IMG/VR virus record: IMGVR_UViG_3300037347_000015
Coordinates: 1-29,836 of that record
Source of the DNA: a virus
Direction: 5' to 3' (one strand)
Length of the DNA: 29,836 nt
Every line of letters starts with the position of its first letter. The first letter of the stretch is position 1. A program made the position numbers and the translations under genes. The notes below the pieces were generated by a model. The model was not told the origin of the DNA. It was given only the letters and a program-made list of their open reading frames with translations, and made no database searches. This document shows, piece after piece, positions 3,644 through 18,868 of the stretch.

Positions 3644-4371
3644 ATTACTTGTCTTTTATAGTGGTTTGCTAATGCTTTTATATCTGTTTTCATATCTAAC
3701 CTTTCGCCTTTGCGTTTTAAGGTTACAAATGGTTGCCATTCTTGGCACATTTTTTTTGCACTTGCTTCGTCTTTTTTTAATTTGTATTCATCTTGCAAAC
3801 CACCTTTGTTACTTCCAACGTCTGGACAACTAAACCAATAATGATTAAACCTTAAAACTCCGTTACCTTTTTGTATTGTTTGTAAAGCAAAATCTCTATC
3901 TTCTTTTAGATTAAACTCTGGTCTATAATTCCATCTAATTTTTGAAACATTCATTAAAACACAAACTTCAGCAAACTTTTTATTTATAGAATATTTTGTT
4001 TTCTCGTGCCATGCGTGCTGTGTGTAATTTATACCAACTAATTCAAATGGTAAAGCCTTAACTTTATTATAAATATCAATCCAAATAGAAGCGTCTTTTT
4101 TAACTGTTTTTCCGTTGTAAATTCCAAAAGAAGTAACATCGTCGTCGCAAACTATAATCCATTCTTCTTTGTTTTCTTTTGCCCAATTTAAAACAAAGTT
4201 TCTAACATATCCAATACCACCGTTATTTTTTTTAATACTAACTTTGTTTGGAACGTTGTATAATTCTAACTCTTGTGGCTCAATAAAATGAAATACTTTT
4301 ATCCGTACATCTTCAAATAGTTTGTATGTTTTTGTTGTTGGTCTGCCTTTTGTCGGTATACAAACTATCAT
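3640..4371 (-). CDS. GT-A glycosyltransferase, probably TET-associated (TAGT-like)
   Basis: A 243-residue protein. The N-terminal strand MIVCIPTKGRP is a nucleotide-sugar binding start. GGIGYVRNFVLNWA leads to the metal-binding acidic motif IIVCDDD (D76-D78), the DxD of GT-A enzymes. LKEDRDF (E158, D159, D161) is the usual later acidic motif near the acceptor. Gene coupling to the 2OG oxygenase on one side and ParB on the other (both ATGA-type overlaps) points to a DNA-base glycosyltransferase acting on hydroxymethylated pyrimidines. The sugar and target base cannot be read from sequence. Confidence 0.78.
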   Translation of the reverse strand: MIVCIPTKGRPTTKTYKLFEDVRIKVFHFIEPQELELYNVPNKVSIKKNNGGIGYVRNFVLNWAKENKEEWIIVCDDDVTSFGIYNGKTVKKDASIWIDIYNKVKALPFELVGINYTQHAWHEKTKYSINKKFAEVCVLMNVSKIRWNYRPEFNLKEDRDFALQTIQKGNGVLRFNHYWFSCPDVGSNKGGLQDEYKLKKDEASAKKMCQEWQPFVTLKRKGERLDMKTDIKALANHYKRQVI

Positions 4372-4943
4372 AATTTATTCTTTTCGGCTTTTAAAAAGTC
4401 CAATATCATTTTACCTACATAAGCGTCTTGTTCGCGCCAAAACTTTACAAGTGCATACGCTTCTTCGTAATGGTTTGGTTCAAATTCAATTTGAATAGCT
4501 TTCTTGACGCCGTTTTTCATTTCGTCAAGTTGGTTGTCCAAATCATCGTTATCATCAAGTAAAGAGTAGTCAACTTCTACTGGCTGTTGCCAAACATCCA
4601 AGCCCCACTCCGTTAACTCCTCAGCATCCCATTTGTTTGCTAAGCTATCCCAATCCCATTCTCCAAATCCAACGTTATCTTTTATGATAAATTCCTTTTG
4701 CTGTTGCTCTGTAAGGTTGCTTGCTTTGATAATCGGCACTTCTTTTAAACCAGCTTCTTTACACGCTTTTAAACGCATATTACCACCCAATACAATCATA
4801 TCATCGTTGACTACAATCGGACGTAAGTTAAGCATTTCTGGGAACTCTTTAATAGATTTTACCAACTTAGCAAATTTGTCGTCTTTTATAATTCTGGGAT
4901 TGTTCGGGTTTGTTTTAACCTCTGATATTTTTACTACTTGCAT
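4368..4943 (-). CDS. ParB-like N-terminal domain protein
   Basis: A 191-residue protein with a ParB/Srx-fold domain at residues ~1-90: KISEVKTNPNNPR, then IVLGGNMRLKAC with the GxxR motif (G53-R57), then EVPIIKASNLTEQQ. The segment NVGFGEWDWDSLANKWD and TEWGLDVW is usual in phage ParB domains that are often fused to DNA methyltransferases. Here the methyltransferase part is absent and the protein ends in an acidic linker and a short helical tail. It heads the three-gene modification operon. It may be a sequence-specific adaptor, CTPase or nuclease; no direct evidence decides. Confidence 0.82.
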   Translation of the reverse strand: MQVVKISEVKTNPNNPRIIKDDKFAKLVKSIKEFPEMLNLRPIVVNDDMIVLGGNMRLKACKEAGLKEVPIIKASNLTEQQQKEFIIKDNVGFGEWDWDSLANKWDAEELTEWGLDVWQQPVEVDYSLLDDNDDLDNQLDEMKNGVKKAIQIEFEPNHYEEAYALVKFWREQDAYVGKMILDFLKAEKNKL

Positions 4944-5403: not shown

Positions 5404-5489
5404 TTTTATTGTGTATGCTTTTTATTTTTTAAACATACAAATATGTCGTTAAATTGTTAGAGTTTCACATATCCGATGTTAGCAAAAAC

Positions 5490-5672
5490 TTAATCTAATA
5501 AGTCTAGGTATTCTTTACACTTTACGCATTGCTTAATTTTATAGTCAATATCTATAAAGTCGTGGGCGCATTTGCTAACACTGTATAAATACAATAGCTT
5601 ATCTATTGCCTCCTGTTTACTTATATCATCCCTAATTAGGTCTGTTACTATATCAAATATTTTATCTTCCAT
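5490..5672 (-). CDS. Small protein with C-terminal CxxC
   Basis: A 60-residue acidic protein. The N-terminal half is helical (IFDIVTDLIRDDISKQEAIDKLL), and the C-terminal half has Cys and His (KCAHDF, QCVKCKEYLDL) that could bind one zinc ion. Small proteins with this layout are common among early genes of Bacteroidota phages. The function is unknown. Confidence 0.5.
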   Translation of the reverse strand: MEDKIFDIVTDLIRDDISKQEAIDKLLYLYSVSKCAHDFIDIDYKIKQCVKCKEYLDLLD

Positions 5673-5766
5673 ATCGCTACTGTTTTTATACTATTTCGTT
5701 ATCTACAAATATCATTTTTTAGTTTTAAATTTTGTTAAAAACGCAAGTTTATGCGTATATCTAATA

Positions 5767-6111
5767 GTTATGCACCATAAAAACTGAGTGTATCTATACA
5801 GGCATTTAGTGTTGAAATTGGCTCTGAATAACATTTGCGTTCAAAGTCAATGTTGCGATTATATCCGTGCTTACTTTTATACCATTCTATGTAGTCTTTT
5901 ATTCTAATATGCATTTCACAATCAGAAGCATCAGCATTACCATCATTAGTAAGCACTAACAATCCACGCAATTGATATTTTAATGCTTTTGCAAAAGGTA
6001 TATGCTGTTTACCTTCACAACATTGGCAGTAATGTTTATGTACGTTTTCGCCAATTTCTATATTAGGGCATTGTATCTTCATCATAATTATTAGAATTTA
6101 CGGTGCATAAC
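5767..6111 (-). repeat. Perfect 10-bp inverted repeats bounding one gene (cassette 1)
   Basis: GTTATGCACC at 5767-5776 and GGTGCATAAC at 6102-6111 are perfect reverse complements, and exactly one gene lies between them. In the gene's direction the unit begins GTTATGC and ends GCATAAC, as an integron gene cassette begins with GTTRRRY and ends with an inverse core. The stop codon of the gene (5768-5770) lies inside the boundary site. Confidence 0.6.
5768..6085 (-). CDS. Cys-rich hypothetical protein carried on attC-like cassette
   Basis: A 105-residue protein with an N-terminal Cys/His cluster (QCPNIEIGENVHKHYCQCCEGKQ split by spacers) that could hold zinc, then helices, an acidic Cys patch (NADASDCEM) and IEWYKSKHGYNR. 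It starts at ATGATG, so the start could be 3 bases later. Its stop codon is part of a 10-bp inverted repeat that bounds the gene on both sides. This makes it look like an acquired single-gene cassette rather than a core phage gene. Function unknown. Confidence 0.6.
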   Translation of the reverse strand: MMKIQCPNIEIGENVHKHYCQCCEGKQHIPFAKALKYQLRGLLVLTNDGNADASDCEMHIRIKDYIEWYKSKHGYNRNIDFERKCYSEPISTLNACIDTLSFYGA

Positions 6112-6197
6112 ATTGTATATGGTTAATGCGCCAATGAAGGCCAGTGCTTAATTTGAAAATTTGTGGTAGGCGCACTAACCATATACCTACCGTTAGC
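6102..6197 (-). other. attC-like recombination site B
   Basis: The ends TAAC (6108-6111) and GTTA (6192-6195) pair. After unpaired spacers of 3 and 5 bases comes a long stem, 6115-6132 with 6169-6186, 17 of 18 positions complementary. The one exception becomes a G-T/G-U pair on the minus strand. The apical loop is 36 bases. R box, spacer, L box, stem and variable loop in ~96 bp is the layout of integron attC sites. A transcribed RNA hairpin is the main alternative. Confidence 0.55.
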
Positions 6198-6528
6198 GGA
6201 AACCCTGCAACAAATCGGCATTTTCATAAATATTACCTATTTTTATAATTGACTCTTTGTGCCAACCACCTAAACGATACCTTGAAACAGTACTCACGTA
6301 ATAACATCCAAGTTCAAATTTAACTTGAGCAAGGCCTTTGGGTGTTTGAATTATATCGCTTTCAAATATTTCATTATAATTAGCATCATATATTCCAGTT
6401 GACATCATTAATTTTTTATCTCCAAAATGGTGCATAAAACTTTGTATTGTTTCTAAATCGGGGTTTCCTTGGTATGCCATGTATTTTTGACTTTTATCCC
6501 ACGCTCTAAATTTTATTTCTCTATTCAT
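6193..6528 (-). CDS. YopX family protein on attC-like cassette
   Basis: A 111-residue protein of the YopX family, common in phages of Firmicutes and Bacteroidota. Signature pieces are REIKFRAWDKSQKYM at the start, STGIYDANYNEIFESDII in the middle (an STGLKDKNGKEIYEGDI-type motif) and IKIGNIYENADLL at the end. The fold is a small beta-barrel; the molecular role is unknown. I start at the Met before NREIKF because family members begin there; the upstream in-frame codons are TTG and lie in the palindromic region. The stop codon sits inside the GTTAGC core of attC-like site B, and GCTAAC lies upstream at 6584-6589. Confidence 0.88.
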   Translation of the reverse strand: MNREIKFRAWDKSQKYMAYQGNPDLETIQSFMHHFGDKKLMMSTGIYDANYNEIFESDIIQTPKGLAQVKFELGCYYVSTVSRYRLGGWHKESIIKIGNIYENADLLQGFR

Positions 6529-6613
6529 TCTATTTTTAGATTTGTGAAGAAAGGCAGCCACTATGTCATATTTTAACCATATTGCTAACGTCAGCAAAAA
6601 GGTGTAAAACTAA

Positions 6614-6740
6614 TGATAACAATGTATATAAAAAAGGCGGTGTTCGTTGCTGAACTTTAATCTTCGTCTAAGTTAAGGTAATATCAAAACCCTTAACGCA
6701 CTGGTACGAAACCGCCAATTTAATATACTAAACGTTACGT
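6614..6740 (-). other. attC-like recombination site A
   Basis: GATAAC (6615-6620) and GTTACG (6734-6739) form the outer boxes. GTATAT-type inner boxes follow, and then GGCGGT-G-TTCGT (6636-6647) pairs with 6706-6716, leaving one bulged G, like the extrahelical bases of attC sites. A nested hairpin GTTAAGG/CCTTAAC (6672-6678 with 6691-6697) sits in the apical loop. The motif TAACAATGTATAT closely matches TAACATTGTATAT in site B. The stop of the 71-residue gene (6735-6737) lies in the core. Confidence 0.5.
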
Positions 6741-6950
6741 ATGCCGTTTATTAAACAGATACTCCTGCACCTCTTTTGTTGCCTTGCGCTTTGCCTTGTG
6801 CAAACTTAAATAGTTAGGATCGTTTTTGTTATTCTCGTACTCGTTTGCTTCCCTTACTTCTACATAAGTAAATATCTCACGTTGCCCCTGCGTGAGGGTG
6901 TTAAAGTCGTCCTCACGCATTCTTAGGAACATTTCTTTTGCGCCTTGCAT
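6735..6950 (-). CDS. Small conserved hypothetical protein
   Basis: A 71-residue charged, helical protein (MFLRMREDDFNTLT at the start; HKAKRKATKEVQEYLFNK at the end). Its start overlaps the stop of the Rad52-like gene by one base, so it belongs to the recombination operon. Its stop codon forms part of attC-like site A and marks the boundary between core genes and accessory cassettes. Function unknown. Confidence 0.55.
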   Translation of the reverse strand: MQGAKEMFLRMREDDFNTLTQGQREIFTYVEVREANEYENNKNDPNYLSLHKAKRKATKEVQEYLFNKRHT

Positions 6951-7651
6951 TATTGTAGTTTTAATTTCATAGCGTCTTTTATTGCAGCGGTTGCGGCTTG
7001 TTCTGCTTGTGTAAAAGCCTTGTAAGTAGTTTGTAGTTCACCCATAGCAAGGCAAGCGTTTAGCCTATTATTTAAACGTGGTATGTCTAGTATTGTTACT
7101 GTTGGTATTGGTTGGTTTGCAACGCCCCATGAATATCTTAAAACATCGTTTTGGTCTTTTGCAAATAAACCGACTATTTTTTTTTCGTTAAAAAAAGAAA
7201 CCCATTTCCATTCCTTTATTTTTAAATCAAAAGTCGCGCGGTATTTTGGTCTGTCTTGACCTGTTAATTGCACTTCATTTTCTTTTAAAAGTATGCTTAT
7301 TTGTGGGTAGTCGTATAATTCCCTGCCTATACCTAAATTAAAACAAGCGCGCTTAAAGCTATCACTTGCAAGCCCTTTCTCTTTTTCTGTTAGGCTTTGC
7401 GTTCCGACATCTTCTTTTCCTACCCACTCATTTATATTCTCGTTCCAGATAGATACGCGGCATCTAGTATTACCGTCAAAGTGTTCTCGCTTCCAATATG
7501 CAGCACCTACGACATCATCTAGTCTATTCATATCCACGCGAGCATCTTTATACGCTAATATTGTGGCATACTTTCCGTTATTTATAGACTGCACCCAAAA
7601 ATCAATCTCGTTTATTTTTAAAGGCGTTCTTAATAGTTCTAAATTTTTCAT
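6950..7651 (-). CDS. Rad52-like single-strand annealing protein
   Basis: A 233-residue protein of the Rad52/Rad22-type phage recombinase group. The N-terminal domain has EIDFWVQSINNGKYATILAYKD, then DVVGAAYWKREH and CRVSIW. The hallmark motif is EKGLASDSFKRACFNLGIGR, split here as GLASDSFKRACF and NLGIGRELYDYP. It anneals complementary single strands at double-strand breaks and at phage DNA ends. The C-terminal third is a helical low-conservation tail. The DUF3127 (SSB-like) gene and NinG lie upstream in the same direction, consistent with one recombination module. Confidence 0.88.
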   Translation of the reverse strand: MKNLELLRTPLKINEIDFWVQSINNGKYATILAYKDARVDMNRLDDVVGAAYWKREHFDGNTRCRVSIWNENINEWVGKEDVGTQSLTEKEKGLASDSFKRACFNLGIGRELYDYPQISILLKENEVQLTGQDRPKYRATFDLKIKEWKWVSFFNEKKIVGLFAKDQNDVLRYSWGVANQPIPTVTILDIPRLNNRLNACLAMGELQTTYKAFTQAEQAATAAIKDAMKLKLQ

Positions 7652-7933: not shown

Positions 7934-7960
7934 GTGTAAATATACACTATTATTTGTAAT
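7934..7960 (-). promoter_or_regulatory. Diverged third copy of the early promoter repeat
   Basis: The minus strand reads AATAGTGTATATTTACACC, as in the two better copies at ~9258 and ~13946. The -7 box is TATATTTA (7937-7944), one base off TAnnTTTG. The -33 TTG found in the other copies is missing here. It precedes the 65-residue gene. Confidence 0.45.
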
Positions 7961-9257: not shown

Positions 9258-9287
9258 TAAATATACACTATTATTGTTATTACGCAA
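9258..9287 (-). promoter_or_regulatory. Repeated Bacteroidota-type promoter, copy 2
   Basis: On the minus strand TTG (9285-9287) is followed by 19 bases and TATATTTA (9258-9265), one base off the Bacteroidota consensus TTG-N19-21-TAnnTTTG. About 41 bases around it match the copy at 13946-13975 with a single difference. It abuts the NinG stop and is followed by an A-rich leader into the 126-residue gene. Confidence 0.7.
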
Positions 9288-10502: not shown

Positions 10503-11322
10503 TTTTTTTATTTTTTACTTCGGTTTGTATTGGCAGGCTATTATTATCAAGGTTAAACGCAATATCATAAAAAGCGCGGTTCCGTGTATATTGAGCAGAT
10601 AGCGTTGTTGTATAATCTTCGGTTACAACGCTTATAACTGTTTCCGCTTTCTTTGTCACGCTGCTTCCTAAGTGACCTGTGGCTTTCAAAGTGCCGTAAT
10701 TCATGTGCAAAACAGTACCTATTGCGATTTTGTATTCTTTGCTCCAACTCATTAGCAACTGCACCACCGCGTTACATTCCTCAATATCATTAACGTTTTT
10801 TACTAGGTCAGCGATTCCGTCAATAAACATTAAACCAATGTTTTTTATGTTTTTAAGTTGCCATTTTATTAAGCCTATTCGCTGTTCTACGTCAAGGCTT
10901 CGCATACTGTAAGGATAATAACCGCCATATTTGTAACCGACCATTTCTAGCACCTGCCTTGCGCCTTGCTGGGTGTGGAATAAAGATTGTTCTGTGTCGT
11001 TGTCTATGACTATTTTATTTTCATTGTCGTGTCCTGCAATATCTGGAAAGTAGTCGCTTGCATTACCGCCTATGTAACTGGCTATAATAGCCTTTTTTGC
11101 AAAGGTTTTGCGTGACTTACTTGCACCTACTAAGCAAAAGAAGTCTCCATAAGATGCAATAGGTGTTGGGTATCGGTTTCCCTTGTATTCGTGTTTACCG
11201 ATACTAATCGCGATAGGCTGCTGTTTTATTACTTCGTCAATATTTACAAAGGTGCTTGCGTTTATTGCTGAATAGTCGATGTCGCTTATTGTCTCACTGT
11301 GAAATTTTATAGGCTGTATCAT
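10489..11322 (-). CDS. RepA-like P-loop ATPase, putative replicative helicase or loader
   Basis: A 277-residue RecA-fold ATPase. Walker A is GASKSRKTF (G66, K72, T73), with Arg at the usual second Gly, a variant shared by many Bacteroidota plasmid and phage ATPases of the RepA type. Walker B is IGLMFIDG (D168), followed by the sensor-like TVLHMNYGTLKATGHLGSS, with a conserved His and the GHLGSS turn. It is a candidate hexameric helicase or loader working with the protein encoded just upstream, whose stop overlaps this start by 4 bases. Confidence 0.75.
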   Translation of the reverse strand: MIQPIKFHSETISDIDYSAINASTFVNIDEVIKQQPIAISIGKHEYKGNRYPTPIASYGDFFCLVGASKSRKTFAKKAIIASYIGGNASDYFPDIAGHDNENKIVIDNDTEQSLFHTQQGARQVLEMVGYKYGGYYPYSMRSLDVEQRIGLIKWQLKNIKNIGLMFIDGIADLVKNVNDIEECNAVVQLLMSWSKEYKIAIGTVLHMNYGTLKATGHLGSSVTKKAETVISVVTEDYTTTLSAQYTRNRAFYDIAFNLDNNSLPIQTEVKNKKNGNY

Positions 11323-11966
11323 ATCGACCCAATTTGTTTAACGGTTCTAAACTTTGCTAATCTACCCGCTTGAATCTCCGTTCCAATCCAGTTACTGCAA
11401 TAAGTTCTAAAGTTATTAAACGGCTCGTTGTATTCTCCACCTGTTTGTGTTCCTAAGTGGATTATAAAGTGGTCAACTAACTCGCGCAAATTACCTTGCT
11501 TTATTTTGTGTTTACGGTAAACGCTTTCACGCCATATATCGCTTTCAGATTCGCCTATTTGATTTGAGTATAAATCCATAACATCTTTAAAATCTACCTT
11601 ATTAATTACATTATCATTATCATTAACATTAACAGTTGGTTTTGTTGAGGTTTGTTGAACACTTTCAACACTTGTTGCTTTTGTTGTATTTTGTTGTTCT
11701 TTGTTTAACGCTCTTAGTCTTGCTGATTCTTTTCCAGCATCGCTGCGCTTGCCTTTAACTTCCTCAAACTTTACCAAATCCCTTTTAAGCTGGCTTTGTA
11801 TAAACTTCCACGCTGACAATACAACTCTATTTTCTAATATTGGATTCATATCATTAACATACTCAAGTAGGTGCGTGAATAGTATTCCCTTTTCTTCATT
11901 TGTTAAGTGGTCTATATTGTTTATTAAGTCAGCGTAAAGAACAAATGATTTTTTATTTTCTGCCAT
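11319..11966 (-). CDS. DUF6291-like putative replication initiator
   Basis: A 215-residue protein. The N-terminal ~75 residues (SFVLYADLINNIDHLTNEEK, then LFTHLLEYVND) match the DUF6291 type common at the start of Bacteroidota phage replication modules. A Gln/Thr/Asn-rich linker (~90-125) follows, then a helical C-terminal domain (WRESVYRKHKIKQGNLRELV, FNNFRTYCSNWIG). The order initiator-like gene then ATPase is like lambda O-P. The linker DNA carries a phased repeat array that may be the origin. Confidence 0.72.
   Translation of the reverse strand: MAENKKSFVLYADLINNIDHLTNEEKGILFTHLLEYVNDMNPILENRVVLSAWKFIQSQLKRDLVKFEEVKGKRSDAGKESARLRALNKEQQNTTKATSVESVQQTSTKPTVNVNDNDNVINKVDFKDVMDLYSNQIGESESDIWRESVYRKHKIKQGNLRELVDHFIIHLGTQTGGEYNEPFNNFRTYCSNWIGTEIQAGRLAKFRTVKQIGSI
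11610..11696. repeat. Iteron-like array and AT-rich repeat inside the initiator gene (candidate origin)
   Basis: On the plus strand, TTTGTTG or CTTGTTG occurs at 11641, 11651, 11671, 11680 and 11690, with spacings of about 10 bp or twice that. At the missing 11661 position lies an inverted repeat (TGTTGAA-CACT-TTCAACA). Next to it are four hexamers, ATTATC twice and ATTAAC twice (11610-11633). Phased repeats beside an AT-rich tract inside an initiator gene recall the lambda origin. A low-complexity protein linker could also give such repeats. Confidence 0.4.
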
Positions 11967-11985
11967 TACTAAATATTTTTAACGT

Positions 11986-12033
11986 AAATACCCTTTCGAT
12001 TTAACCAGGCACGGCTAAAAAGAAAGGGTATTT
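11986..12033 (-). promoter_or_regulatory. 12-bp perfect hairpin in the leader of the initiator-like gene
   Basis: AAATACCCTTTC (11986-11997) pairs perfectly with GAAAGGGTATTT (12022-12033) around a 24-base loop. It sits ~20 bases before the initiator ATG and after a possible -7 box. No U-run follows, so it is not an ordinary terminator. A translational control element, a protein-binding RNA or a remnant cassette structure are possible. Confidence 0.5.
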
Positions 12034-12068
12034 TATAATTTCGTTTTGGTTAGTGCCTTAACCGTTTA

Positions 12069-12076
12069 CAAATGTA
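12069..12076 (-). promoter_or_regulatory. Possible -7 element upstream of the replication genes
   Basis: The minus strand reads TACATTTG, an exact TAnnTTTG match, about 100 bases before the initiator-like gene. There is no TTG at the expected -33 distance. It would place the 12-bp leader hairpin inside the transcript. Confidence 0.35.
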
Positions 12077-12089
12077 ATACTATTTATTA

Positions 12090-12471
12090 GTTATAGGGCA
12101 TTTAAGCGAAACCCATTTCAATTTCTACCAAAACCCAACTTCCGCAATCTGAACGCTCATACCTTGCTTCTCTCAACGGTAATATTAAATGAGCCTCCCA
12201 CTTACTTTGTGGAAATTCTTTTGCTTCAAGTTCAATTTCTTTAAGTTTTTTAATATTGTCCCAGTTTTTAAATCGGTCTTTAGAATCATCCACAAAATAA
12301 GTTTCCCCGTCTTTTAAAATAGTCCATCCACCAAATCCGCTATAAAGTGTGGTTTCTATATCTAATAATTCTTCACTTCCACCACAACATAGGCATCCTA
12401 CCTGTTGTGTTTTTCCTTTCATCTTTTCTTTTAGTTCATTTAATTCAGCCATAATAAAAACGCCCTATAAC
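12090..12471 (-). repeat. Perfect 10-bp inverted repeats bounding one gene (cassette 2)
   Basis: GTTATAGGGC (12090-12099) and GCCCTATAAC (12462-12471) are perfect reverse complements and enclose exactly one gene. In the gene's direction the unit begins GTTATAGG, 18 bases before the ATG, and ends CCTATAAC just after the stop. This is the same design as the cassette at 5767-6111. Confidence 0.6.
12102..12452 (-). CDS. Hypothetical protein carried on attC-like cassette
   Basis: A 116-residue protein. The N-terminus is a charged helix, then a Cys motif (VGCLCCGGSEELL), then LYSGFGGWTILKDGETYF and VDDSKDRFKNWDNIKKL, and a C-terminal strand SCGSWVLVEIEMGF-like end. Proteins with the GFGGWTI-type core occur as isolated accessory genes in Bacteroidota, as far as I can recall. 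It interrupts the replication module between the 73-residue gene and the initiator, and is bounded by inverted repeats, so it is probably an insertion. Function unknown. Confidence 0.6.
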   Translation of the reverse strand: MAELNELKEKMKGKTQQVGCLCCGGSEELLDIETTLYSGFGGWTILKDGETYFVDDSKDRFKNWDNIKKLKEIELEAKEFPQSKWEAHLILPLREARYERSDCGSWVLVEIEMGFA

Positions 12472-12615
12472 ACTATGTATAGCAAATAGCCGTGTTACGG
12501 GTCTTTTTAAAACTATTTGCTTAATTATTAATTACTGTTTATTTACTTCCTTCCGTGCTTAAATCGGCTACTTGCCATACACAAACCGATATACAATAGT
12601 TTTTAGTTGTTAGTT
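12462..12615 (-). other. attC-like recombination site D
   Basis: The 17-base arm at 12476-12492 (TGTATAGCAAATAGCCG) pairs with 12565-12581 at 15 of 17 positions; both exceptions become G-T/G-U pairs on the minus strand. CTATAAC (12465-12471) is the outer box on one side, and GTTAG (12608-12612) is a weaker candidate on the other. The 72-base apical region holds a competing hairpin, AGCAAATAG (12481-12489) with CTATTTGCT (12513-12521). The 214 bases between genes here hold nothing else that I can see. Confidence 0.45.
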
Positions 12616-13945: not shown

Positions 13946-13975
13946 CAAATATACACTATTATTGTTATTACGCAA
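13946..13975 (-). promoter_or_regulatory. Repeated Bacteroidota-type promoter, copy 1 (exact consensus)
   Basis: On the minus strand, TTG (13973-13975), 19 bases, then TATATTTG (13946-13953) and C: a complete Bacteroidota sigma consensus. Nearly the same 41 bases occur at 9253-9293. It would start the transcript for the 82-residue gene and the DnaA-like, winged-helix and following genes. Confidence 0.75.
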
Positions 13976-14134: not shown

Positions 14135-15253
14135 TTAGAATATGTGTGTGAGCTTTGCTACTTGTCCTTGTGTTTCATGGTGTAGAAAACCTACCACCGC
14201 TTTAGGTGCGTGCTGGTAGCCGTTGCGATGATGCCAGCCGTCTGTGCCGCTTGGGCTTCTAAGCGTTTCTATGCACACACTAAACACATCTTTTGCACTT
14301 GTGTGGTGTATGTGATGTCCGTATACATAACGGTGCTTACAGGCGTGCCAAAACTCGCTCGCTTCTTCTGCCATTAAGCCGTGCAGCTTATCAACTTTCG
14401 CGCTATCCATGTGCGTAGTACCTATAAGGTTGTTTCCGTAAACGGTGTATTTTCGATGCCGCATGTCATTATCAAATGTAACCTGTTTGCAGTTGTGAAA
14501 CCAACTTGAAACACTATCTAGTAACATAAAACCGTGAGTAAAGTCGTGGTTACTTGGATTGTAAACAACCTCAACATCTGCAATAGTTAGCAGCGTTTCT
14601 ATAATTTCCACTAGCAATTTTTTAGCCATTATAAAATTATCATACCACATTCCGTCGGTGTCTTGATGCGTGCCGCTTGTAGTGGTAGCGCGTGCATTGT
14701 CTACGTGCAAAATGTCATTACCAGCAATAAATAGAACTTTGTTAATATGGTAGCCGCTAGCCTTTTGTATAATGCCTTTTAAGCCCTCTCTAACGCGTTG
14801 TACGGCAATTTGTGAGTTATATGTCTCCCCTGTTTCAAAGCTGCTGCAAATCTTACCTATATGTATGTCGGCAGCGTCAAATACTAAGCAATGATTCTCG
14901 TTAGATTTTTCACGGGTAAACTTTGGGTAAATAAAAGCGTATTTTTTTGCTTCCTTTATAAATGATTCATGCAACTCTTTTACGTGCTGCATTTCCTGTT
15001 TAATTTCTGGCTTAATAAATAGCGGGTTTGTTACTCTTACGCTTTCTTGTTTAGTCTTTAGCCAAAGCATCGGCGCGGTTGTTGGGTCTGCGCCTACATT
15101 TGCGCAGGCTTCTACAACGCCTTTATTTTTAATCTCTAAATAAAGTCTTTCTTTTCGGCTGTTTAAGTAGTACCTTGGGTTTCCGTTGCCTGTATAAGGC
15201 TTTAACGCAAGCCCTAGAGCCAGCGCAAAATCGCTTGTTAATCTGACTTTCAT
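14135..15253 (-). CDS. Calcineurin-like metallophosphoesterase
   Basis: A 372-residue protein with all the motifs of the two-metal phosphoesterase fold: DIHIG (D129, H131), AGNDILH (N179, D180), NPSNHDF (N235, H236, D237), GTTHMD (H281) and YGHHIHH (H314, H316). The N-terminal ~110 residues are a separate helical/basic region. SbcD/Mre11-type and other nucleases and phosphodiesterases share this fold, so DNA processing is likely but the substrate cannot be read. It lies between the lysis genes and the small RNA; its leader has a 7-bp hairpin (GTAAAGT/ACTTTAC). Confidence 0.85.
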   Translation of the reverse strand: MKVRLTSDFALALGLALKPYTGNGNPRYYLNSRKERLYLEIKNKGVVEACANVGADPTTAPMLWLKTKQESVRVTNPLFIKPEIKQEMQHVKELHESFIKEAKKYAFIYPKFTREKSNENHCLVFDAADIHIGKICSSFETGETYNSQIAVQRVREGLKGIIQKASGYHINKVLFIAGNDILHVDNARATTTSGTHQDTDGMWYDNFIMAKKLLVEIIETLLTIADVEVVYNPSNHDFTHGFMLLDSVSSWFHNCKQVTFDNDMRHRKYTVYGNNLIGTTHMDSAKVDKLHGLMAEEASEFWHACKHRYVYGHHIHHTSAKDVFSVCIETLRSPSGTDGWHHRNGYQHAPKAVVGFLHHETQGQVAKLTHIF

Positions 15254-16900: not shown

Positions 16901-18868
16901 TTAACTTGATGTTACTGTTTCGTAAGCGGTCGCCCCGCCTATTCTCATTTTGTTTAATGTAGTATTGAAGAATTGCCCGCCTTTAAGGTAGGCTGGTTCG
17001 GTTGCTGTGGTAAATTGTGCAAATGATACCGCACCTCTCAATATAGTGTTTGTTATTGTAGTGTTGCCTAACGTTACGGTGTTTGAACCTGCACCAATTG
17101 CGTTGTGTCCAATTACAATCTGATTTGTTTGATTGTCTGCTAAAGCTTTTGTATTTCCTCCTAAAAACACTGAATTATTTGTAATAGTGTTTTCAGTAGT
17201 GCCATTTTGAATAAAACGACCAGAGTTTGCACCGCCCGCAAAGTTATTACTTCCTGTGGTGTTTGAAAGCAAAGCACTTAAACCATAACCATTATTGTCA
17301 TTTCCTGTGGTGTTATTTCTTAAAGAGCTTGTACCACTTGCTGTGTTAAAACTTCCGGTTGTATTTAATAACAAAGAGTCTTTTCCGTTTCCAGTATTAC
17401 CAGTTGCTGTTGTGTTTGCAAACAAAGCACTTACTCCATTTGCTGTGTTAGAAGAACCTATGGTGTTATTGTATAAAGAATTTAATCCATTTGCAGTGTT
17501 ATTAGAACCTGTGGTGTTAGACCTTAAAGCGTTTTGACCATTTGCTGTGTTGGTAGATATATTACCGCCACCACGACCTACTGTCAAACCGTTTGCAACT
17601 ATGTCAGCTCCTGATGTGATTGAGCCGCTAAACTTTCCATTACCTACAACGTCTAGTTTTTCTGTTGGGGTTTGTTGGTTTATACCAAAGTTTCCATTTG
17701 CAATTATATTATCTGAAAATGTTTTAACCCCAGCAACTGTCTGCGCACCTGTAAGCTGCACGCTGTTGTCTGCTTTAACACCCTGCGCAAGTGTTGCCAC
17801 TTCATCACTAAACGCAACAGCCTTAAACGCGGTTCCGTCGTGTATGTTTAACCTTGCGTTTTCGTCTAGCATTACAGAGCCTTTAACAGCGTTTGTAATA
17901 GTAGATAATGCAGCGGTAAAGAACTTTTGCATACCGTTTTTAAACAGCGTGTACGCGTCTGAACGGTTGCTTGTGTTTACTCCATTACCGTAGTTTACTA
18001 AGCGGTCTGTAAGGTCGAATCCTGTTGCGTTTTGTGGCGTGTAGTCTGTTCCGTTTACACCTCCCGAATGTTCTCCGAATGAACGCGAAAAAGTTTGAGT
18101 ACCCTCTACATGTGATGAACTACCGCTTGCTACTGCATTAGACCCTTCTGCGTGTGATGCTCGACCGCTTGCTGTTGTTGCGTTTCCCTCTGCGTGTGAT
18201 TCATCAGCACTTGCGGCTGTATTATTGCCCTCCGTGTGTGAATTATTACCACTTGCGTTTGTGCCGTTTCCCTCTGCGTGTGAATTATTACCACTTGCGG
18301 TTGTTAACTCTCCTTCTGCGTGTGATATATCACCACTTGCGGTTGTGTCAGCTCCTTGTGCGTGTGAATTATTACCTGTCGCACCATTTGTAGTACTTTC
18401 ATCAATTTGAAAACTTAAATCTACCGCATTATCTCCAATATTGCCATAGTTTGCAGGGTCAGCATCTTTAAGCCTGTAACCTGTTTTACCGTTTTCTGTA
18501 ATTTTTACAAGTTGACCACCCGATTCTATTGCATCGTCTAAATCCTGCGCCGTTCCAGCATAACCACCGTTTAAAAGATAGTCGGCAACAACTGGTATTG
18601 CTGGCTTATTTTTAATAAAGTCGTCTTGCGTATCATCATTTTGTAAAAAGTCCGATTGTACGTTTAATTCTGCAAAATCTTCAATATTAGCAAGCTTGTT
18701 TTTTTGAGTTGTTGTATAGTCGTTTGAGCTCAACCCCTTCCCAACTTCTTTATCTACTTTCTCAGTAAACAAGTCGGTAAAATTAGACTGAACCTTGATA
18801 AACGCGGATCTTAGTTTGTCGCCTAGTCCGTCATTCGGCTGTGATACGTTAAAATTTTCCTGTGCCAT
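16901..18868 (-). CDS. Tail fibre with YadA-like head repeats
   Basis: A 655-residue putative receptor-binding fibre. Residues 1-90 are a collar-like N-terminus (KLRSAFIKVQSNFTDLF). Residues 163-260 hold seven 14-residue units of ASGxxSHAEGxxTT type, the beta-roll repeat of trimeric autotransporter (YadA) heads. A middle domain follows with TGAQTVAGVKTFSDN. Residues 448-549 hold six 17-residue units of the LxxNTTGSxNTANGxxS type. The end, AYLKGGQFFNTTLNKMRIGG, is usual in Bacteroidota phage fibres. It should trimerise; no chaperone domain is evident. Confidence 0.85.
   Translation of the reverse strand: MAQENFNVSQPNDGLGDKLRSAFIKVQSNFTDLFTEKVDKEVGKGLSSNDYTTTQKNKLANIEDFAELNVQSDFLQNDDTQDDFIKNKPAIPVVADYLLNGGYAGTAQDLDDAIESGGQLVKITENGKTGYRLKDADPANYGNIGDNAVDLSFQIDESTTNGATGNNSHAQGADTTASGDISHAEGELTTASGNNSHAEGNGTNASGNNSHTEGNNTAASADESHAEGNATTASGRASHAEGSNAVASGSSSHVEGTQTFSRSFGEHSGGVNGTDYTPQNATGFDLTDRLVNYGNGVNTSNRSDAYTLFKNGMQKFFTAALSTITNAVKGSVMLDENARLNIHDGTAFKAVAFSDEVATLAQGVKADNSVQLTGAQTVAGVKTFSDNIIANGNFGINQQTPTEKLDVVGNGKFSGSITSGADIVANGLTVGRGGGNISTNTANGQNALRSNTTGSNNTANGLNSLYNNTIGSSNTANGVSALFANTTATGNTGNGKDSLLLNTTGSFNTASGTSSLRNNTTGNDNNGYGLSALLSNTTGSNNFAGGANSGRFIQNGTTENTITNNSVFLGGNTKALADNQTNQIVIGHNAIGAGSNTVTLGNTTITNTILRGAVSFAQFTTATEPAYLKGGQFFNTTLNKMRIGGATAYETVTSS
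17222..17527 (-). repeat. Six 51-bp coding repeats in the fibre gene
   Basis: Six consecutive 17-residue units (residues 448-549) with consensus LxxNTTGSxNTANGxxS. Unit copies have diverged at the DNA level, so this is an old protein repeat rather than a recent duplication. It may vary in copy number between relatives. Confidence 0.75.
18089..18382 (-). repeat. Seven 42-bp coding repeats (SHAEG type) in the fibre gene
   Basis: Seven 14-residue units with SHAEG, SHAQG, SHTEG or SHVEG at a fixed place (residues 163-260), the YadA-like beta-roll. On the plus strand the repeated word is (CC)CTCTGCGTGTGA or close variants. Confidence 0.8.

Follow-up and report, generated by a model that had tools for sequence, protein, structure and literature searches.

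The window analyzed here is the complete 29,836-nt stretch of the virus record IMGVR_UViG_3300037347_000015, a 29.8-kb IMG/VR virus record. Its ends form a 185-nt direct repeat (99% identical), as expected of a circular genome. The region of interest carries a gene for a Cys-rich protein (5768-6085) and a YopX gene (6193-6597), and beside them lie two imperfect palindromes (6102-6197 and 6614-6740), both with the motif TAACA(A/T)TGTATAT. The original prediction, made from the sequence alone, took these palindromes for attC-like sites of integron-like gene cassettes in a phage genome. The palindromes are real and lie where they had been placed. The YopX assignment held (PF09643, 2.5e-14), the product of the Cys-rich gene matched no Pfam family, and a tyrosine recombinase motif scan of the window found no candidate, in agreement with the statement that no integrase is encoded here. 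With a probability of about 90% we regard the palindromes as recombination sites of the attC type, which delimit integron-like gene cassettes. This reading is supported by comparison with other loci, which revealed an empty site, exchanged genes and near-identical sites beside different genes.

We searched the window with a covariance model termed R1, which was built from 57 sites with 20 base pairs and whose training set includes site B and excludes sites A, C and D. Four attC-like hairpin sites were recovered, all on the minus strand, namely site B (6617-6737, E-value 3e-12), site D (12468-12591, 3e-11), site A (6108-6195, 2e-10, top strand TAACATTGTATAT...ATATACCTACCGTTA) and site C (5576-5701, 1.1e-9). 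The best match after these four was site A on the opposite strand (0.16). Hence, both palindromes of the original prediction were scored as sites, and its count of two has to be raised to four by sites C and D. Site D has GATA in place of the right GTTA, and the core of site C is 91.5% identical to a core in the viral contig L088. Site B shares 80.5% identity over 130 nt with unannotated DNA of the Nonlabens phages P12024S/L, and site A 75.6% with unannotated DNA of Tenacibaculum phage Gundel_1. The stretch TAACAWTGTATAT occurs twice in exact form in the window; with up to two mismatches it gave 10 matches against 4.84 expected, and 10 was reached in 3 of 100 shuffles.

By integron theory, a cassette begins with bases that are complementary to the R'' box of that same cassette. 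The original prediction had pointed to such a pair at the Cys-rich gene, and we indeed found GTTATGCACC (5767-5776) together with its perfect complement GGTGCATAAC. The complementarity extends over 10 nt in cassette A, 9 nt in cassette C and 10 nt in cassette D, whereas cassette B has only the 4 nt of GTTA. Cassette A (5767-6191, minus strand, like all elements of the array described here) consists of GTTATGCACC, the Cys-rich gene and GGTGCATAAC with site A, and the stop codon TAA of the gene lies within the crossover TAAC. Cassette B (6192-6733) starts with GTTAGCGG and comprises the YopX gene, which also stops in a TAAC, and site B. Cassette C (5478-5697) starts with GTTAGCAAA, has the R'' box TTTGCTAAC and holds a 60-amino-acid (aa) open reading frame (ORF) at 5490-5672. 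The start of this ORF lies within the hairpin of site C, from where the reading frame runs outward across the site; in contig L088 a similar start is encoded in the loop of the related site. Cassette D lies apart from the others (12090-12587), with the start GTTATAGGGC, a 116-aa gene (12102-12452) and the R'' box GCCCTATAAC with site D. The 69 nt between cassettes C and A (5698-5766) are a putative cassette remnant, judged by their resemblance to both ends of a cassette in the related contig L314 that carries a 145-aa NinB/Orf-like gene (phrog_72). Contig L126 has nearly the same piece ahead of a different cassette. A further GTTA/TAAC (6734-6737) provides the stop codon of a 71-aa gene (6735-6950), so that in the window the 71-aa gene, the YopX gene and the Cys-rich gene each stop in a TAAC.

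Relatives of the window were sought through the ParB-like gene at 4368-4943, which gave 547 matches; 80 loci were kept, many of which stop short of the array region. A search through the gene at 6950-7651 yielded none. R1 sites were present in two of the 80 ParB-linked loci (L314 and L384), and the flanks of the array were matched in DNA by L314, L366 and L369, three among the best 20 of the 80 aligned relatives. L366 carries an empty site, in which the sequence corresponding to 6734-7104 of the window (88.4%) joins that of 5413-5481 (92.8%) at a single TAAC. The edges of this junction are the GTTA/TAAC at 6734-6737 upstream and that at 5478-5481 downstream. The whole block 5482-6733 is absent, including the hairpin, and only TAAC is left. 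In L314, with flanks of 91-97% identity, a 79-aa and a 145-aa gene take the place between the same flanks, and L369 has 101-aa and 60-aa ORFs ahead of the same downstream flank, while its upstream flank lies past the contig end. The check for presence or absence in related phages that had been proposed with the original prediction thus returned an empty locus broken at the GTTA box and a locus with other genes.

To generalize from the window, sites from many records were compared. In the following, virus denotes IMG/VR or phage records and cell denotes genome records, in which prophages were kept. Among sites with enough flank, a cassette start, defined as GTTA plus 5 nt complementary to the own R'' box within 3 kb upstream, was found for 65 of 102 viral sites, against 5.0 (standard deviation 2.3, maximum 11) with shuffled tags. 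For cell sites the count was 61 of 111 against 2.6 (standard deviation 1.6, maximum 8). On the other side of the site there was none in either set. A near-identical site was usually found in a new context: of 240 pairs of cores with at least 90% identity, 226 have neither flank in common, 13 share the cassette-body side only and none the other side only. The single pair that shares both flanks consists of two overlapping calls on one contig. Since one-sided pairs are split 13 to 0, the core travels with the body that precedes it in attC orientation, with crossover at the GTTA end; the mirror model, in which the core moves with its other neighbor, was ruled out (0 of 240 pairs).

The position of the breaks was analyzed in the same material. 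One-sided matches on the cassette side start exactly at the G of GTTA in 8 of 15 cases. Among 1368 pairs that match solely on the site side, homology ends at the A of GTTA in 649, a count that is partly forced by the search pattern. Nine longer cassette matches were listed, and in five of them (L024/L192, L280/L146, L150/L162, L162/L196 and L174/L238) homology begins from the G on both sides; in L150/L196 it starts 14 nt before the G. The pairs L026/L105, L037/L126 and L218/L234 were rejected as whole-cassette matches. With 400-nt flanks the far end could be tested in L024/L192 and L150/L162, and homology ends there 5-6 nt into the next box. The pair L024/L192 consists of a 302-bp cassette in a phage and in a bacterial contig, 87% identical, with both ends at the box and unrelated flanks. 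The bacterial contig may be a prophage. When L024 was compared with phages by megablast, the sole match was an HNH endonuclease gene of Staphylococcus phages. Taken together, these comparisons show the putative mobile unit to run from the G of GTTA to the next GTTA, and in comparative tests the array appears to behave like an integron cassette array, with two exceptions, namely the R-box consensus beyond GTTA and the start of cassette B, which lacks the complementarity.

We then turned to the hairpin itself. Folded as DNA, the minus strand was more stable than dinucleotide shuffles for site A (z -3.66, 0 of 200 as good) and for site B (z -3.33, 1 of 200), and the plus strand gave z -2.57 for A and -3.72 for B. 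Because both strands beat the shuffles, folding energies of single sites do not pick a strand for B, and for both A and B the two strands are close in energy. In the alignment of 57 sites, standard pairs fill 94.9% of the pair cells compared to 78.1% after shuffling, and 186 cells are changed on both sides compared to 69.7 (covariation score 0.397 versus 0.110). The E-values of R1, the covariation and the spread of the family rule out chance palindromes. In attC sites, the choice of strand is set by extrahelical bases. The strand-marking feature that we found here is a G.T wobble at two fixed stem positions of the bottom strand. Of 117 viral sites, 95 have it at position 7 and 84 at position 12; of 122 cell sites, the counts are 105 and 110, respectively. 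The top strand of the same sites showed no wobble at position 7 and a single one at position 12. Pair cells are accordingly filled better on the bottom than on the top strand, with 94.5% versus 84.0% in 40 viral sites and 95.9% versus 85.9% in 17 cell sites, in a comparison that uses the structure predicted on the favored strand; without the invariant pair 13/143 the values are about 94% versus 88% and 96% versus 90%, respectively.

The direction of the genes differs between the two sets. Both ends are defined in 73 viral and 67 cell cassettes, whose starts were located by complementarity. In the viral ones, 67 of 73 have genes directed away from the site (3 toward, 3 undecided), whereas in the cell ones genes are directed toward it in 62 of 67 (5 away). 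Without the complementarity filter the viral set has 13 toward, 66 away and 29 undecided (n = 108) and the cell set 97 toward, 5 away and 11 undecided (n = 113). Viral cassettes have a median length of 363 bp and cell cassettes of 1266 bp. The sites of the window therefore appear reversed next to a textbook integron, while their polarity relative to the site itself is normal. An inverted ORF is present in 72 viral cassettes; it terminates with the TAA of the crossover TAAC in 28 of them and has its stop codon no more than 30 nt from there in 65. These ORFs begin a median of 15 nt past the site, and in a quarter at least 54 nt inside it. As the wobbles keep to one strand of the site while gene direction flips between virus and cell, the hairpin follows the polarity of the site and not the mRNA. 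The original prediction had cautioned that the G-T wobble of site B favors minus-strand folding and that an RNA structure was a real alternative. This concern about the strand is resolved, since the wobbles follow the site and not the gene.

Sites A and B both fit the pattern TAACANTGTATA-(loop)-TATAC-NNNN-CGTTA. When IMG/VR was scanned twice for exact forms of this pattern, 35 and 95 stretches were obtained, which amount to 129 viral loci, some of them near-identical. A pattern scan of bacterial genomes gave at least 120 stretches. Among the 80 matches listed, most titles name Bacteroidota, and Neomarinimicrobiota, Cloacimonadota, Chlorobiota and a few more phyla also occur. In a sample of 118 Bacteroidota genomes the site family was detected in 50, using stricter filters and at most 27 scored candidates per genome, so that a zero in this search is no proof of absence. 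Many cassette starts, judged by eye, come after hairpins with other inner boxes, and the pattern consequently covers one subset of a larger site family. Among the matches listed by a tblastn search with the terminase of the window were phages that infect other hosts, none of which reached 60% identity, and the likely Bacteroidota host is for this reason deduced from the site family.

On bacterial chromosomes the sites form arrays on the same strand, often beside a tyrosine recombinase gene. These recombinases are mostly about 270-390 aa long (up to 728 in L302). They match the integron integrase model TIGR02249 below its cut-off and in two pieces, with model positions of about 180-238 skipped. 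The spacing from the KDR motif to the H.LRH motif is 53-63 residues in 25 of 26 array-type proteins, one being not measurable. It is 100 in nine IntI proteins. Of five XerC/D-like controls, four have 62-68 residues and the fifth has 34, after one further control (L410) was dropped from the set as too short. The insertion specific to IntI is not present in the measurable array-type recombinases. In a tree of 40 proteins, IntI and the array type are parted together from the controls by a branch with 100/100 support, without resolution of the array type as a group of its own beside IntI. Close behind the recombinase genes of L273 and L235 we noticed, by eye, short palindromes that end a few bases ahead of the GTTA of a cassette start and are candidate attI-like sites. 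In L296 (Zobellia uliginosa) a reverse transcriptase-like gene (11048-12085) lies near the recombinase; it has a YADD motif and looks retron-like by eye. The sequence stretches examined from the viral contigs of the two IMG/VR scans showed the recombinase motif in L091 only, where a recombinase of the short kind (6327-7139) lies 700 nt ahead of a cassette start.

The association between recombinase and sites was quantified in two ways. A site lies within 10 kb of 16 of 20 recombinases that score at least 290 bits with profile A2, compared to 6 of 35 tyrosine recombinases with lower scores (p 7e-6; including the second piece of the broken G132 recombinase changes this to 7 of 36 and p 1.4e-5), a comparison tempered by the facts that its 20 genomes were picked for having sites and that several recombinases come from G123. 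None of these 20 genomes gave a row to profile A2. On contig C1 of G123, four recombinases of at least 290 bits each lie 4.6-7.4 kb from a site. Across the 118 Bacteroidota genomes, an insertion-free recombinase occurs in 34 of 50 genomes with sites and in 10 of 68 without (p 3e-9). True IntI does not co-occur with the sites in these genomes (14 of 50 versus 25 of 68, p 0.33). Altogether, true IntI above the TIGR02249 cut-off was found in 39 of the 118, more than the IntegronFinder 2.0 paper, in the parts consulted, suggests for Bacteroidetes (PMC9024848).

These data suggest the following mechanism. During replication or entry of the phage, the bottom strand, which is the gene-sense strand in phages, would fold when single-stranded. 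A tyrosine recombinase would bind both boxes of the folded site and swap one strand between G and TTA, and a cassette would thereby be inserted or removed at a TAAC that often serves as the stop codon of a gene. The enzyme acting on the phage sites is presumably an IntI-related recombinase. It would come from the Bacteroidota host and lack the IntI insertion, as do the recombinases often found beside arrays of the same type in the chromosomes. For the phage, the outcome would be a small swappable region of accessory genes that is read in its own direction of transcription. We favor, with reasonable though clearly lesser confidence than the cassette reading, the view that this is a second integron system, in which a sister of IntI without the IntI-specific insertion runs large arrays in Bacteroidota, and on which phages draw with miniature cassettes that are turned round, so that the crossover TAAC becomes a stop codon and each insertion cleanly extends the phage operon. 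Inverted, stop-codon-fused cassettes in phages suggest selection for such clean insertion. Integrons are commonly associated with IntI and the additional segment of this enzyme. If the system works as proposed, the need for this insertion in the recombination of folded single strands could be tested directly, and a route of gene exchange between phages and bacteria would be revealed.

Several observations weigh against this picture. All of its support is comparative. The empty site is known from L366 alone, the L314 junction at the end that resembles site B is imprecise and without GTTA, and 7 of the 15 one-sided matches on the cassette side start elsewhere than at the G. The start of cassette B (GTTAGCGG) is not complementary to the R'' box of site B, and cassette B is therefore probably a fused or rebuilt cassette. 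The R'' box fits RYYYAAC in 16 of 117 viral and 10 of 122 cell sites and the R' box fits GTTRRRY in 18 of 117 and 20 of 122, where about one in eight is expected given GTTA/TAAC; the loose fit that had been remarked on in the original prediction is thus at about chance rate beyond these four bases. With respect to the recombinase, 16 of 50 genomes with sites had none above the threshold applied, and no site was detected in 10 of 44 genomes with a recombinase. L310-L312, which were fetched for their recombinase, held no site, and no site was seen next to L262, L264 and L311, which belong to the 12 proteins of profile A2 and to the 26 of the tree. Finally, genome G025 has a true IntI 3.8 kb from a site, and IntI may for that reason act on some sites.

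This last point leads to the alternative that the sites are worked by the classical IntI of the host and that the IntI-related recombinase beside the arrays has another role. In favor of this, true IntI is above cut-off in 39 of 118 genomes, and IntI1 recombined five of six phage attC sites in the experiments reported by Qi et al. (2023; PMC9892861, consulted in part), one of them from a Polaribacter phage. The distribution of the sites speaks for the other enzyme, as they co-occur with the insertion-free recombinase (p 3e-9) and not with IntI (p 0.33), and the R boxes match GTTRRRY at about chance only. In addition, no R1 site at E < 0.1 was present in eight IntI loci from the phylum to which G019 belongs (Neomarinimicrobiota by its title), which is a weak test with loci of 2.6-3.9 kb. 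We consider a system run by classical IntI unlikely, yet more probable than the two other alternatives.

One of these is that the hairpins are structured RNA elements of the phage mRNA, such as regulators in the 5' untranslated region, processing sites or terminators, that were spread by ordinary recombination. The phage loci fit this well, with hairpins directly 5' of genes, start codons at a median of 15 nt past the site, wobbles that favor the sense strand and strong covariation. In the cell loci, however, the same strand of the site carries the wobbles while 62 of 67 genes run oppositely, and the hairpin would fold better in the antisense RNA. Chiefly because the wobbles hold to one site strand as gene direction flips, we set this reading aside as very improbable. 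It is also at odds with cassette ends that complement each other far from the hairpin and with breaks that fall at GTTA, and an Rfam search of the window returned six matches with E-values up to 5, none above the gathering score and none at the sites. Similarly improbable is the replacement of genes through homologous recombination between dispersed similar repeats, without a site-specific enzyme. Near-identical cores are indeed available in many places, some junctions are imprecise (L314), and the remnant at 5698-5766 resembles a deletion between short repeats. Against it, the empty site of L366 has lost the hairpin and keeps TAAC alone, homology begins at the G of GTTA in 8 of 15 one-sided matches, and recombination between repeats gives no reason for the complementarity of R'' and cassette start. 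The cassette reading, with a site-specific recombinase, is preferred over both.

Compared to integron attC sites and cassettes, the sites described here share the plan of the hairpin (outer boxes, inner boxes that complement each other, and a long loop), the crossover at GTT, a cassette start that complements its own R'' box, a favored bottom strand, and arrays that often lie beside a tyrosine recombinase. They differ in that the outer box is conserved only as GTTA, that most sites of the pattern carry bottom-strand T.G wobbles at positions 7 and 12 of the stem, that the recombinase lacks the IntI insertion and that phage genes are directed away from the site. Clusters of attC sites lacking integron integrases (CALINs) are already known from phages. 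In the parts consulted, Qi et al. (2023; PMC9892861) describe 17 of them, found with IntegronFinder and HattCI+Infernal and including one in Polaribacter phage P12002L, and these likewise are attC gene cassettes without an integrase in phage genomes. R1 has one match in P12002L (14494-14633), which may be one of the sites of Qi et al. In comparison with that study, we describe a single site family in 129 viral loci, together with evidence from an empty site and shared cassettes, inverted genes and stop-codon junctions; what is new here is the insertion-free recombinase beside the cell arrays and the inverted genes of the phages.

For the recombinases, the parts consulted of Smyshlyaev et al. 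(2021; PMC8138268) group an integron-like subgroup of simple tyrosine recombinases with IntI, in which the IntI insertion is not fully conserved. The insertion is termed essential for integron function there, whereas here insertion-free relatives adjoin cassette arrays. The best NCBIfam match of all ten scanned recombinases was XerA (NF040815, 177-230 bits), and four of the ten reach its cut-off of 220. Unlike XerA, 11 of 12 aligned array recombinases (not that of L091) have the motif (N/S)P(L/F/I)D near the C-terminus, and most adjoin hairpin arrays. As far as the parts consulted go, the IntegronFinder 2.0 paper has Salinibacter ruber as the sole case of a complete integron within Bacteroidetes proper, others being in Chlorobi and Ignavibacteriae (PMC9024848), a 2021 review counts Bacteroidota among the phyla with integrons (PMC8618304), and Ghaly et al. 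(2021; PMC8352920) have no Bacteroidota model among 11 taxa. We found no description of this cassette system in the literature searched, which was in part covered by a portion of the matching papers and did not extend to subscription papers and preprints.

Apart from the cassettes, the window has two further repeat features. A TAAATATACACTATTATT-like stretch is repeated at 7937-7960, 9258-9281 and 13946-13969 and is a possible phage promoter or operator. The gene of a 655-aa protein (16901-18868) contains internal repeats with periods of 51 nt and 42 nt, at 17238-17551 and 18102-18376.

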